From: an uncultured Saprospiraceae bacterium
Lineage (GTDB): Bacteria > Bacteroidota > Bacteroidia > Chitinophagales > Saprospiraceae
DNA length: 53,198 nt
NCBI GenBank assembly: GCA_937927575.1
Contig: CALBEE010000150.1
Coordinates: 1 to 53,198, forward strand
Direction of reading: 5' to 3'
The notes beneath the pieces were generated by a model. The model worked only from the letters and a program-made list of their open reading frames with translations, made no database searches and had not been told where the DNA came from. Made by a program: the position numbers and the translations under genes. Within the stretch, counting starts at the first letter, position 1. Each line of letters starts with the position of its first letter. Of the stretch, positions 18,427 through 24,126 are shown piece by piece.

Positions 18427-19722
18427 CTATTCTGTCTGCCGATATTTATTCCAATAATAAGTCAATAGAACGCCTCTCATAATCAGAAAACTAAACATCG
18501 CTAACCACAACCCTTGTAGAGGATCTTCCAATTTCACAAAGTGATAGAGTCCTAAAAAAACGATCACAGCCAAGATCATACTATCACGCATTTCTTTGCT
18601 GGCCAATAATCCTATAAATACGCCATCCCAAATGTAGCAGGCAAATGCAATGACAGGAAAGACTACCATCCACGTTTTGTATCGAAGTGCAAAATCAATT
18701 ACATCACTATCACTAGAGAATAGATGAAGTAATCCATCATAATACACAAAGTACACAAGAGAATAAGTAACCGCCAATATCAATCCCCAAAGAAATGAAA
18801 GCTTCACTGATTGACTTAAATTAAATCTATCTCCTGCGCCTTTATATTTTCCAACCATGCTTTCTGCAGCGTAAGCAAATCCATCAATACCATAACTCAT
18901 CCAATTTACAAATTGAAGTAAGATGGCATTGGCCGCTAAAGCTAATGCGCCTGCAATCGATGACTCTCTATAGAAATATGCAAATACGAAAGTGAGACAA
19001 ACGGTACGTATAAATAGATTACTATTTACTTTGAAAAAATCTATCAACTCGCTGACTTTGGATGCAGCCTTGATCAATTCAGAACTGAGATACTGACGAT
19101 ACTTATAAGCTACAGCCACAAAACATAATAACACTCCGGTGTATTGAGCGATGACGGTACCCAAAGCCACACCTCTTATATCCATACCATAATGATGTAC
19201 AAGCATGTAGCTCACTATGATGTTTACGATATTGATAATGATCGTGATGATCATAGGATAGATGGCATTCTGCAATCCAAAAAACCAACCCATCAAAACA
19301 TACATCATCATGGTAGCAGGTGCAGCCCACATACGAGTAGTAAAGTACTCTGTGATCAATGGTGCATGTGCATCTTGAAATGAGAAAAACCAAGATGCGG
19401 CTTGCAATAACCAACCTTGAGTAAGAAATATAGTAACCGCCAGCAAAAGCGCTAAGAGCATTCCTCTCACTAATGTCACTCCTAATTTATAATCATCTTG
19501 AGCACCATAGGCTTGAGCTGTAAGTCCAGTCGTACCCATACGGAGAAATCCAAAATTCCAATAGACAAAATTGAAGATCATGCCACCTAAACCAATAGCT
19601 CCCAGGTGCAATGCCGAAAGCTGTCCCATCAAGATCGTATCCACCGTTGATAGCAAAGGAATCGATATATTACTTACAATATTGGGGATTGCTAGATTGA
19701 GTATTTCTTTGTGGGATGCCAT
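18427..19722 (-). CDS. MATE family multidrug/cation exporter (DinF-like)
   Basis: The 431 residues form about 12 membrane helices in two similar halves. The first half begins LAIPNIVSNISIPLLSTVDTILMGQLSALHLGAIGLGG, a MATE/DinF signature. The second half includes WMSYGIDGFAYAAESMVGKYKGAGD, the conserved E-x-M-x-G segment. These proteins export drugs or metabolites using H+ or Na+ gradients. The start codon shares one base with the stop codon of the upstream gene (TAATG), so translation is probably coupled. The substrate is unknown. Confidence 0.9.
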   Translation of the reverse strand: MASHKEILNLAIPNIVSNISIPLLSTVDTILMGQLSALHLGAIGLGGMIFNFVYWNFGFLRMGTTGLTAQAYGAQDDYKLGVTLVRGMLLALLLAVTIFLTQGWLLQAASWFFSFQDAHAPLITEYFTTRMWAAPATMMMYVLMGWFFGLQNAIYPMIITIIINIVNIIVSYMLVHHYGMDIRGVALGTVIAQYTGVLLCFVAVAYKYRQYLSSELIKAASKVSELIDFFKVNSNLFIRTVCLTFVFAYFYRESSIAGALALAANAILLQFVNWMSYGIDGFAYAAESMVGKYKGAGDRFNLSQSVKLSFLWGLILAVTYSLVYFVYYDGLLHLFSSDSDVIDFALRYKTWMVVFPVIAFACYIWDGVFIGLLASKEMRDSMILAVIVFLGLYHFVKLEDPLQGLWLAMFSFLIMRGVLLTYYWNKYRQTE

Positions 19723-20300
19723 TAATTGAAATTTAATTCAAGAGTTCTCCAAGCGCTATTATCTGTAGGCATTCTAACTAAATCCATTAACACTTTAGGC
19801 TCTTGAATTGGCACTATTTTATCCTCATAATTTTCTTCACACCATTCCAACGGAAATTCTTCTTGATGAACCATTCTTAAAGATTCTTCTTTGCCTCCGA
19901 ATTTAAACCATTCGTAAATTACTTGAATAAATTTTAATGGATTCATAATGATATATCTTCTCATCTCGGCAACTTCGAATTCTCCAATTCCATAGCTATC
20001 CAAAATTTTTCCGTTACAAATTCTAATTAGAGCTGAAGGGCCATTGATGAACTGCGGACAACTCGCTAAGATTGTAAATTTTATATGTCTATAGTTTTCC
20101 GAAAGGGATTGAATCACCCAATAAGGAGCATATTTTCTTCTTTCGTAATGAAAAAAAAGATTTTCAAGCTCTTTGGTATAACAGGATAAAGGTCCATAGG
20201 TCTTGGCATCTTTTTCATATATATTTATGGCAACAGTCCGAGCTTCCTTTGCACTCCTAATTCCCTCTGCTAGAATAGTAATTTCTGTCTCCCAACCCAT
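19722..20300 (-). CDS. Uncharacterised cytosolic protein upstream of the MATE gene
   Basis: I do not recognise this 192-residue protein. It has no signal peptide or membrane helix. It is rich in aromatic residues, with a Cys-containing core (ASCPQFINGPSALIRICNGKI) and an acidic C-terminal part (EFPLEWCEENYEDKI). The start MGWETEITILAEG is preceded by a gap to the divergent ligase gene, so it is the first gene of its operon. Its stop overlaps the MATE start (TAATG), so the two proteins are probably made in a fixed ratio. The context suggests a partner or regulator of the exporter operon, but nothing more. Confidence 0.6.
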   Translation of the reverse strand: MGWETEITILAEGIRSAKEARTVAINIYEKDAKTYGPLSCYTKELENLFFHYERRKYAPYWVIQSLSENYRHIKFTILASCPQFINGPSALIRICNGKILDSYGIGEFEVAEMRRYIIMNPLKFIQVIYEWFKFGGKEESLRMVHQEEFPLEWCEENYEDKIVPIQEPKVLMDLVRMPTDNSAWRTLELNFN

Positions 20301-20492: not shown

Positions 20493-23180
20493 ATGAAGAA
20501 GATCAAAGTAGGAATATTTTTTGGAGGACCATCTAGAGAGAGAGAAATCTCTTTTGCTGGAGGGCGTACAGTATATGATAATCTCAATAAAGACATATTT
20601 GAGGCCATTCCCATATTTGTAGATAGTCATCAGACATTATTAGCGCTGAATTGGGAGTATATTTATAAAGGAACGATTAGGGATTTCTATCCACCAGCAG
20701 CATATCAGTCTGCTGGAGATAGCAATTATCAGATCTATGTGGAATCTTTAGGCCCAACAGATAGCTATGATTATGATGCCCTTATCAATCAAGTGGGAAA
20801 AAAAAGATCTTGGGATGAAATACAGTCACAAATAGATATTGCCTTTTTAGCACTACATGGCAGTTATGGAGAAGATGGACAAATACAAGCCATTTGTGAT
20901 GCCAGAGGAATACCTTATACAGGATCTGGAGTCTTACCCTGTGCTATTGGAATGGATAAGTATACTCAGAAAAATTTGATGGAAGCTGCGGGTTTTCACT
21001 GTCCTGAGATATTAGCGATTACAAGAGAAGAGTGGATCAATAGTAGCGAAGATGATATCAATACTTTGTATCAAAGATCGAAGGAAGTGATAGGGTCCAC
21101 TATGGTAATCAGACCGAGTAATCAAGGAAGTAGTATCGGTGTAAGCATCCTTAAGTCAGTAGATCTCAAAACCTACAGAGAATCCATAGACGCTGCATTT
21201 TTCATAAGCTATCAAAGTGCTGTCCAGTGGAATAATTTCAACATTGAAGAAAAACATAATTGGGCAGTAGAATTATCAGACATCCGCGGTGGAATTGGAT
21301 TTCCAGTGCAGATCAATGATGATACTATCTATCATCCTCAAAAATTAGTCGCCTATCTAGATACATATCTGAATAGTCATGATGCTTGTACTATAGAAGG
21401 TCATATGACTGAGCAACGAGTAATCGTAGAATCATTTATCGATGGTAGAGAATTTTCATGCATCGTACTGCGTAACGAAGATCAAAAATCTATTGCCTTA
21501 CCACCTACTGAAATTGTTAAATCAGGGGAAGTATACGATTATAGATCCAAGTATCTTCCTGGTTTGTCTCGTAAGATTACACCTATTGCAGTAAGTGATC
21601 ATCACCTTAAGGCTATACGATCTGAATGTGAGCGATTATATGACTATTTAGGGTTTCATACCTACGCTAGAATTGATGGATTTATAAACTCTGAAGGGAA
21701 GATATTCCTCAATGATCCTAATACAACTTCCGGTATGTTACCTTCTTCATTTTTCTTTCATCAAGCGGCAGAAATAGGATTAAATCCAAGTCAATTTCTA
21801 AGCTTCATTATTAGATGTTCGATACAGGAGCGGCTCAAAGATCAGTTACATCTTAGAGGATATAAGCCATTACTTCAACGTATCGATGATGCTTTAGAAA
21901 AATTACAAAAAGAAGAAAGCCAAAAGAAAAAAGTAGCTGTAATCATGGGAGGCTACTCCTTTGAGCGTCATATCTCTATGGAAAGCGGGCGTAATATTTA
22001 TGAAAAACTTGCTAGTTCGGATAGATATGAACCGATACCTATTTTCTTGATGAAAGATGGAGATGGACACCAACTCTATAAGATTCCAGTGAAGATGCTA
22101 CTTAAGGATAATGCGGATGATGTAAAAGACAAAATTCTTGGATATTCTGTCCATCCAGTGATAGAGCAAATTCAAGAAGAATGTAAAGCGATAATGGATA
22201 GATACTTGGATGCTAGCTATATCTCTTCTCCTTCTCTGATCAGTTATGATCAATTAGCGCAAGAAGTAGATTTGGCATTTATAGCATTACATGGTAGGCC
22301 AGGAGAAGATGGTACGGTACAAGCCAAGCTAAGGTCACATGGCATACCACATAATGGTTCGGCTGCAGAATCTGCGGCTAAGACTATTGACAAATATCAA
22401 ACACTACAAATACTTAAGAGTAATGGCTTTACGGTAGCGAATCAATACGTTATCTCAAAGGAACAATATCAACTAGATAAGGACCAAGCCATTGCCCATA
22501 TGATCGAACTTGTTGGACGATTTCCAATCATTGCCAAACCTATGGATGATGGCTGTAGTTCGGCAGTTAGAAAAATCAAATCTTCAGAAGAATTAAAAGT
22601 CTACCTCAAAGGATTATTTCGTGATGAATGGCTCATGAGCCCAGAATTAAGATCAGAGTTGGACTTGAATTACAATGAAGAGTTTCCGATGAAATCTGAG
22701 GTACTATGCGAAGAACTGATCGACAGTAGTGATGCAGATCATTTCCTTGAAATCACAGGTGGCATGTTGACCCATATGGATGGAGAAGGTGTTAGGTTTG
22801 AAATATTTGAGCCTTCGGAAGCTTTAGCTACTGGCGAAGTATTGTCCTTAGAAGAGAAGTTTTTAGCTGGAGAAGGTCAGAATATTACACCTGCCAGATT
22901 TAGTGAAAACCCAGATAGATTTAGGGCGATATCAGATAAGGTAAGGGCAGATTTACAAAGAGCGGCGGAGCTATTAGGTGTTAGTGGATATTCTCGTATA
23001 GATGCTTTCGTAAAAATAAAAGGAGATGATGTGGAGACAATTGTAATAGAGATCAATTCGTTACCAGGTATGACTCCTGCTACTTGTATATTCCATCAAT
23101 GTGCTATTAATGGATACAAGCCTTATGAGTTTATTGATAAAATATTGCAATTTGCAGACCAGCGAGGGTTTCCTTCATAA
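20493..23180 (+). CDS. ddl: Tandem D-alanine-D-alanine ligase-like fusion (two ATP-grasp ligase modules)
   Basis: The 895 residues contain two complete Ddl-like modules, about 1-470 and 478-895. Module 1 starts GGPSREREIS (E16), has a serine loop GSSIG (S213), an omega-loop YDYRSKY354, and ends LNDPNTTSGM with D408 where Ddl enzymes have the Mg-binding Glu. Module 2 starts GGYSFERHIS (E491), has the loop DDGCSSA (C688 at the Ser position), EEKF790 where Ddl has a Tyr, and keeps E853 and N855 (IEINSLPGM). In E. coli DdlB the E15-S150-Y216 triad closes the active site. The family joins two D-alanines for peptidoglycan. It may be a D-Ala ligase with a second module of altered specificity, or a catalytic/regulatory pair. 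Confidence 0.85.
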   Translation: MKKIKVGIFFGGPSREREISFAGGRTVYDNLNKDIFEAIPIFVDSHQTLLALNWEYIYKGTIRDFYPPAAYQSAGDSNYQIYVESLGPTDSYDYDALINQVGKKRSWDEIQSQIDIAFLALHGSYGEDGQIQAICDARGIPYTGSGVLPCAIGMDKYTQKNLMEAAGFHCPEILAITREEWINSSEDDINTLYQRSKEVIGSTMVIRPSNQGSSIGVSILKSVDLKTYRESIDAAFFISYQSAVQWNNFNIEEKHNWAVELSDIRGGIGFPVQINDDTIYHPQKLVAYLDTYLNSHDACTIEGHMTEQRVIVESFIDGREFSCIVLRNEDQKSIALPPTEIVKSGEVYDYRSKYLPGLSRKITPIAVSDHHLKAIRSECERLYDYLGFHTYARIDGFINSEGKIFLNDPNTTSGMLPSSFFFHQAAEIGLNPSQFLSFIIRCSIQERLKDQLHLRGYKPLLQRIDDALEKLQKEESQKKKVAVIMGGYSFERHISMESGRNIYEKLASSDRYEPIPIFLMKDGDGHQLYKIPVKMLLKDNADDVKDKILGYSVHPVIEQIQEECKAIMDRYLDASYISSPSLISYDQLAQEVDLAFIALHGRPGEDGTVQAKLRSHGIPHNGSAAESAAKTIDKYQTLQILKSNGFTVANQYVISKEQYQLDKDQAIAHMIELVGRFPIIAKPMDDGCSSAVRKIKSSEELKVYLKGLFRDEWLMSPELRSELDLNYNEEFPMKSEVLCEELIDSSDADHFLEITGGMLTHMDGEGVRFEIFEPSEALATGEVLSLEEKFLAGEGQNITPARFSENPDRFRAISDKVRADLQRAAELLGVSGYSRIDAFVKIKGDDVETIVIEINSLPGMTPATCIFHQCAINGYKPYEFIDKILQFADQRGFPS

Positions 23181-23319: not shown

Positions 23320-24126
23320 ATGAAAATTTTACAATTCTTGACTAGCAAAGATTTTTTTAAACAACTGTTATACATCGCTATCTTTTTAGGAGTAATATTA
23401 TTTGCTGTGCTAATGTGGCTAAAGTATTATACTAATCATGGTCAAAAATTAGCTTTACCAGATTATGTAGGCGAACAATTAGATGACGCAAGAAAAGATG
23501 CAGAAGACAAAACTTTCCAAATCTTGGTTAATGATTCCATTCATATAGTAGGAAAACCTGGAGGCCAGATACTAGATCAAAATCCCAAACCTGGAGCAGA
23601 AGTAAAGGAAGGTCGTAAGATTTATGTACGTACTACAAAGTACAATTCGGATCAATATCCACTATCAAAGCTTCCTCAATTGTATGGAAATGATTTTGAC
23701 CAAAAGAAAAGAGAGTTGAAATTTCAAGAAATCAATGCAGTGATAAAATCCTATAAATATGATCCTGCTGAACCTAATCACATCCTCGAAGTATACTACA
23801 AAGGAGAAAAAATAGTGAGTAGTACGGTATACAAAAAGAGTACAAAAATTGAAAAAGGAGGAACGTTAGAGATGGTATTGAGTAGTCGTGGTGGTGGCGA
23901 AACAGATTTGCCTGACCTCAAATGTTATTCTTATCCAGAGGCAGTATTCTATTTGGAACAATTAAAATTGAAAGTGGGGAACGTCAACAAAATTGGCAAT
24001 GTTACTAATCTAGATAGTGCATATGTAGTATCTCAGAATCCTGCATATGATCCGATTAAGACCATCGAAAGAGGAACACCGATAGATATCTCTGTACAAC
24101 AATCTAAACCCTCATCGTGTAATTAA
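23320..24126 (+). CDS. Membrane-anchored PASTA-domain protein
   Basis: A short cytoplasmic N-terminus and one membrane helix (about 14-34) are followed by three PASTA-type domains in the periplasm: LPDYVGEQLDDARKDAED to IYVRTTKY, LPQLYGNDFDQKKRELK to LEMVLSSR, and LPDLKCYSYPEAVFYLEQL to IDISVQQ. PASTA domains bind peptidoglycan stem peptides or mediate contacts in cell-wall regulators. Here there is no kinase or transpeptidase domain. In many Bacteroidota such a gene follows the Ddl gene, as here, supporting a cell-wall role, but a terminator lies between them so transcription may be separate. Confidence 0.85.
   Translation: MKILQFLTSKDFFKQLLYIAIFLGVILFAVLMWLKYYTNHGQKLALPDYVGEQLDDARKDAEDKTFQILVNDSIHIVGKPGGQILDQNPKPGAEVKEGRKIYVRTTKYNSDQYPLSKLPQLYGNDFDQKKRELKFQEINAVIKSYKYDPAEPNHILEVYYKGEKIVSSTVYKKSTKIEKGGTLEMVLSSRGGGETDLPDLKCYSYPEAVFYLEQLKLKVGNVNKIGNVTNLDSAYVVSQNPAYDPIKTIERGTPIDISVQQSKPSSCN

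Follow-up and report, generated by a model that had tools for sequence, protein, structure and literature searches.

D-Ala-D-Ala ligase (Ddl) is an essential enzyme, a dimer and the target of D-cycloserine. To our knowledge, most work on its catalytic triad has used mutants of one-module enzymes. A Ddl within a longer chain is seen in the bifunctional MurC-Ddl (NF011171), which we take to be chlamydial, and a tandem of functionally unlike ATP-grasp halves makes up the large subunit of carbamoyl-phosphate synthetase. E. coli has two Ddl copies per cell, encoded by the separate genes ddlA and ddlB (PMC7691350). The same paper says that Ser150 and Tyr216 (E. coli DdlB numbering) are conserved in dipeptide-only ligases and that DdlB with both residues exchanged has weak D-Ala-D-Lac activity, and it gives Ala at the Ser150 place of the single-module Leuconostoc D-Ala-D-Lac ligase LmDdl2. 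PMC5996685 names Phe at the Tyr216 place as a mark of the depsipeptide ligases of lactobacilli.

Here we describe a gene that encodes two full Ddl modules in one chain. It lies in the window (the whole 53 kb contig analyzed, from an assembly of 262 contigs that is 87% complete) at 20493-23180 on the plus strand, starts with ATG and comprises 895 codons and a stop. Module 1 covers residues ~1-470 (20493-21902, +) and module 2 residues ~471-895 (21903-23177, +). On the 895-residue chain Dala_Dala_lig_N matched in two stretches and Dala_Dala_lig_C in four, and the whole-chain scores for PF01820 (162.7 bits, cut-off 34.6) and PF07478 (174.2 bits, cut-off 24) place the protein in the Ddl superfamily. 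The modules share 27% identity with each other and 29-30% with DdlB. The Pfam matches and the alignment with DdlB bear out the preliminary description of this DNA, which had read the chain as two Ddl modules. A 192-residue ORF on the minus strand (19722-20300) adjoins the ligase gene and has no Pfam match at E <= 0.001.

The AlphaFold model (28 sequences) is one well-determined chain with two Ddl folds (mean pLDDT 85.6, pTM 0.87), two omega-loop stretches being among its least certain parts. Both modules resemble solved Ddls with Z scores of about 34-35, module 1 (model residues 2-450) giving 35.4 to 6u1d_B and module 2 (model residues 476-895) 34.1 to 3tqt_A. The modeling that had been proposed as a check agrees with the sequence matches, and on this model an intramolecular pseudo-dimer of the two modules is plausible. 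A chain of two unequal ATP-grasp modules in tandem also brings to mind carbamoyl-phosphate synthetase, after whose example one module might make an activated intermediate and the other consume it. CarB (1bxr_A) is indeed found at rank 44 of the Foldseek matches, in an alignment of 1116 columns, but it belongs to another family, its whole-chain fit is poor (TMq 0.46, rmsd 15.1), and module 1 with a stump appears to suffice in the shortened family described below; we consider such coupling very improbable. Among curated profiles, NF002378 for Ddl (cut-off 243 bits) gives 356 bits for the whole chain as a sum of both halves, and no single module exceeds the cut-off among the double ligases of 22 genomes. 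The chain scores 153.6 bits against a cut-off of 1015 for MurC-Ddl NF011171; both halves are Ddl, so that the partner is a second Ddl here and MurC there.

We aligned both modules with E. coli K-12 DdlB (L058), with a Ddl from L. curvatus and with 23 stand-alone Ddls from related genomes, a set from which the weak Ddl-like ORF of G033 (L057) was excluded. In module 1, E16, S213 (codon 21129-21131, +), Y354 (21552-21554, +), D408 (21714-21716, +) and N410 align with E15, S150, Y216, E270 and N272 of DdlB, and in module 2 the same five places are held by E491, C688 (22554-22556, +), F790 (22860-22862, +), E853 and N855. Every position named in the preliminary description holds: the Glu-Ser-Tyr triad is complete in module 1, which has Asp at the Mg-ligand position, and it reads Glu-Cys-Phe in module 2. 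Two further changes had escaped that description. R207 of module 1 (21111-21113, +) stands at DdlB Lys144, presumably an ATP-binding residue, and the pair 281/282 is S-F in module 1, T-C in module 2 and S-L in DdlB. The double ligase thus resembles stand-alone Ddls (E. coli DdlB/DdlA, Thermus Ddl) in fold, in both Pfam domains and in nearly all catalytic positions, and differs from them in having two modules, in the Asp at E270 and frequent Arg at K144 of module 1 and in the Cys and Phe at S150 and Y216 of module 2; compared with the separate E. coli genes it combines unlike sites in one chain.

The changes in module 2 raise the possibility of a division of products, with module 1 making D-Ala-D-Ala and module 2 another pair, for example D-Ala-D-lactate or D-Ala-D-Ser. 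Module 2 is altered at both of the positions that dipeptide-only ligases conserve according to PMC7691350, and its Phe is shared with LmDdl2 and with the Phe-type Ddls of lactobacilli (PMC5996685), among them the L. curvatus Ddl in our alignment. However, module 2 has Cys and not the Ala that PMC7691350 gives for LmDdl2, and the whole chain scores 182 bits against a cut-off of 550 on the D-Ala-D-lactate ligase profile NF000206. It also falls below the cut-offs of the profiles for VanA (144.1 against 775) and for the D-Ala-D-Ser ligases VanG (238.3 against 495) and VanC (146.1 against 650).

The double gene appears to stand in for the ordinary single Ddl in a group of Bacteroidota, as judged from gene content. 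The proposed search of the organism's own genome for a stand-alone ddl found none in the 87% complete assembly. Among the other PF07478 matches, which might have been extra ddl genes, the part that matched identifies four as RimK, CarB and two biotin-carboxylase-like proteins, and a fifth (on C243) scores 22.7 bits, under the cut-off. Two congeners carry the full-length double frame at 87-88% identity and in a third it is split by a contig end; the genus neighbors (G001-G003) hold the double form only, that of G003 in two pieces. Because both modules lie in a single frame at 100 loci, a frameshift or assembly accident is excluded as the origin of the double ORF.

In a draw of 298 genomes from the order, our own included, the double form occurred alone in 85 and a stand-alone Ddl alone in 194; 4 genomes had both and 15 had neither. 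The double form (E <= 1e-60) was thus present in 89/298 and the stand-alone Ddl (NF002378, E <= 1e-50) in 198/298, 171 of the latter above the curated cut-off and the others by E <= 1e-50 alone. The exclusion gives a Fisher p of ~4e-53, a value that overstates the case because genomes were treated as independent. The double form was found in 32 of the 59 other genomes of a search among relatives. It is uncommon in the phylum, where 8/395 genomes match at E <= 1e-60: two from our own family, three from family f28 with full-length forms and three from family f29 with shortened forms. Of 22 selected genomes that carry double or shortened forms, three (G004, G021, G023) also have a stand-alone ddl above the cut-off. 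A scan of genome contigs for the peptide LNDPNTTS, which contains Asp408, returned at least 80 loci, which were left out of every residue count; records titled Aureispira sp. CCB-QB1 and Rhodocytophaga aerolata, both cultured carriers, are among them. One double ligase of Bacteroidota type (L127) sits on a contig titled Candidatus Saccharibacteria that is perhaps mis-binned or mislabeled.

We call a copy sole if its genome has no match to NF002378 at E <= 1e-50, a definition that leaves room for Ddl-like ORFs with weak scores of 77 to 86 bits, which exist in G033, G026 and G246; the counts come from the order draw less the four genomes with both genes. In the module 1 of sole copies Ser150, Tyr216, Asp270 and Asn272 (DdlB numbering) are each found in 85/85, and position 144 is Arg in 64 and Lys in 21. 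In module 2, Lys144 and Cys150 are found in 85/85 and Phe216, Glu270 and Asn272 in 83/83, the lower counts reflecting gaps at contig ends. Across 107 loci, a list that 17 further loci outside the sole-copy counts enter, the modules present show no departure from 11 key positions at 93. The 14 departing loci comprise six with a stand-alone ddl, seven cut by contig ends and one (L228) whose apparent loss of Glu15 is an artifact of module splitting. Invariant positions in 28 sequences are equally dense in module 1 (109/470) and module 2 (97/425), and dN/dS between L002 and L003 is 0.051 and 0.049, respectively, with dS above 1. In four pairs from genus g7, module 2 is slightly less constrained (0.13-0.21) than module 1 (0.11-0.16). 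The claim that the halves are differently specialized is well supported, since in uninterrupted sole copies each half has its own invariant active-site signature.

These counts bear on a strong rival, in which the role of module 2 is purely structural or allosteric: as a non-catalytic nucleotide-binding partner it would bind ATP and D-Ala and prop or regulate module 1 as a frozen second subunit in a Ddl dimer. In all uninterrupted sole copies, module 2 differs from the triad at two of its three positions, and the AlphaFold model, a single well-determined chain, also favors such a partner. On the other hand, these same copies keep K97, K144, E187, K215, R255, D257, E270 and N272, which we take to be ATP-, Mg- and intermediate-binding positions, and this is more than a scaffold needs. 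We regard the non-catalytic partner as possible but on the unlikely side.

Six genomes hold the double gene together with an ordinary ddl; G004, G021 and G023 came from the relatives search, and G587, G600 and G686, with G021 again, from the order draw. In these six, 12/12 modules of the double protein depart at one or more of the 11 active-site positions, although the diverged rows of the decayed copies align less surely. The mildest departure is that of module 2 in G023, Cys to Ser only, beside a broken module 1; in G600, module 1 has two changes only and module 2 is wrecked. Module 2 has lost more than the Cys in five of the six. The decayed copies sit at three places in the tree, where two changes are forced. 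Since departures accompany an ordinary ddl, the signatures are retained in genomes in which no ligase but the double protein was found. The preliminary description had held that an ordinary ddl beside a damaged fusion would speak against its reading; this situation was not seen in the organism's own assembly but is present in the six relatives, where it is informative rather than fatal.

The same genomes weigh against a separate product of module 2. An ordinary Ddl would replace only the dipeptide, and both modules depart beside it; a separate essential product is disfavored because an ordinary Ddl should not free module 2 too. The decayed proteins may retain a non-catalytic role, as they still look constrained: between L229 and L230 (G587 and G686) dN/dS is 0.056 and 0.034 in the two modules, with dS saturated, and between L047 and either of them it is 0.13-0.14 in module 1.

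Family f29 offers a second view of what module 2 contributes. Module 1 matched in 40/41 of its genomes and in 35/35 of those of good quality, G702 being without a match. In G717 the match is cut short by the contig, and the other 39 are open frames of 555-677 residues made of module 1 and a tail; the match crosses a stop codon in 6/40. A Ddl above the curated cut-off was found in 0/41 f29 genomes. A weakly scoring Ddl-like ORF (326-337 aa, 86-100 bits), perhaps another amino-acid ligase, occurs in six of them (G246, G695, G698, G702, G728 and G729), as at G246:C1:363208-363945. We read 32 of the 40 matches (8 were left unread) and, as a 33rd row, a Bernardetia plasmid record; the shortened-form loci are L241-L269, L050-L052 and L060. 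The module 1 residues, including Asp270, are intact in 33/33 rows (32 of them f29), with Lys and not Arg at 144. The module 2 profile reaches at least 15 bits on the tail in 22/33 rows, mostly over profile positions 3-128, before the ATP-grasp half, so that the tail often looks like the N-domain of module 2; it stays below 15 bits in the other 11, three of which are negative.

In an unrooted tree in which long branches meet, module 1, module 2 and stand-alone Ddls are set apart, and three f29 rows and the Bernardetia row fall inside the module 1 clade, beside f28 (100/96). Because they nest there, f29 has probably lost the catalytic half of module 2. From the gene content of this family, it seems that a main D-Ala-D-Ala ligase can work with Asp at the Mg position, and the catalytic half of module 2 would be dispensable. 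The tail speaks both ways on the non-catalytic partner, since its match in 22/33 rows hints that some structural part is still required and its score is under 15 bits in the remainder. The family also bears on an exchange of roles in which module 2 would be the real ligase and module 1 its helper, a reading that the odd Mg-site Asp of module 1 and its Arg at Lys144 in 64/85 sole copies could favor; here, however, module 1 is fully conserved, Asp included, and the catalytic half of module 2 is gone, and we give this exchange hardly any credence. For the division of products, f29 is again unfavorable. The shift toward D-Ala-D-lactate raised in the preliminary description is therefore unsupported: residue positions alone are in its favor, while both the pattern of decay and family f29 weigh against it, and we hold a second product line to be unlikely.

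We favor the explanation that the double protein is the sole D-Ala-D-Ala ligase, in which module 1 ligates and module 2 is a second ATP-using site serving the same function, and we put its chances at about even. Module 1, with its triad intact and Asp at the Mg position, would carry out ordinary D-Ala-D-Ala ligation. Where the triad has Ser and Tyr, module 2 has Cys and Phe, yet it retains every ATP-, Mg- and intermediate-binding position tested and may add extra or modulating capacity within the internal pseudo-dimer, with no independent product line; a second ATP-using site is suggested because the ATP, Mg and Arg255 positions are complete. The active-site positions, folds, conservation, exclusion with stand-alone ddl, departures beside ddl and f29 gene content all support this explanation. 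Against it, the catalytic half of module 2 is completely conserved elsewhere, which is hard to square with its loss in f29; the halves decay out of step in G023 and G600, and in the 22 genomes no double-ligase module alone reaches the NCBI Ddl cut-off. Further points against it are the weaker constraint on module 2 in g7, the restriction of decayed copies to only three tree places, the existence of weak Ddl-like ORFs, the lack of a module 1 match in G702, the stops in f29 matches and the 87% completeness of our own assembly.

Directly downstream of the ligase lies a gene for a PASTA protein (PF03793) with an N-terminal hydrophobic segment (23320-24126, +), whose homologs are fused to the C-terminus of the ligase at 32/107 loci. 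At 62 loci a PASTA ORF is separate, counted by its presence within the flank, and at 13 none was seen, some of these being cut by contig ends. Beyond residue 850, each of the 32 fused chains contains a hydrophobic window (mean Kyte-Doolittle value 2.1-2.7), which fits a topology of cytosolic ligase, membrane segment and periplasmic PASTA domains as predicted from sequence. The fused forms all belong to our own family and are separated from the unfused ones by one branch (100). L011, L012, L024, L046, L047, L163 and others have the PASTA gene after the double ligase. Because a PASTA gene also adjoins 3/10 stand-alone ddl genes examined, the linkage of ddl and PASTA may be of older date. A bolder reading, which strikes us as rather improbable, is a two-headed ligase, tethered through the membrane segment to periplasmic PASTA domains in part of the family, in which one head makes D-Ala-D-Ala and the Cys/Phe head uses another acceptor or runs a regulated second reaction; if true, precursor supply and wall sensing would be combined in one molecule.

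Our searches of an open-access library returned no paper with a double or PASTA-fused Ddl as the subject of its title or displayed abstract. Ddl itself and two separate ddl genes per cell are already known; a tandem with unlike fixed sites or a PASTA fusion did not turn up in these searches. In the PASTA-fused forms, a single polypeptide would link a cytosolic enzyme of precursor synthesis to a periplasmic domain that presumably binds the wall. The family has two different active sites fixed in one chain across a clade and comes with three natural controls: relatives in which an ordinary Ddl takes the place of the double one, relatives with both in which the double protein is decaying, and a family that is without the catalytic half of module 2. 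With these controls, what the Ser150, Tyr216 and Glu270 positions contribute can be tested directly.
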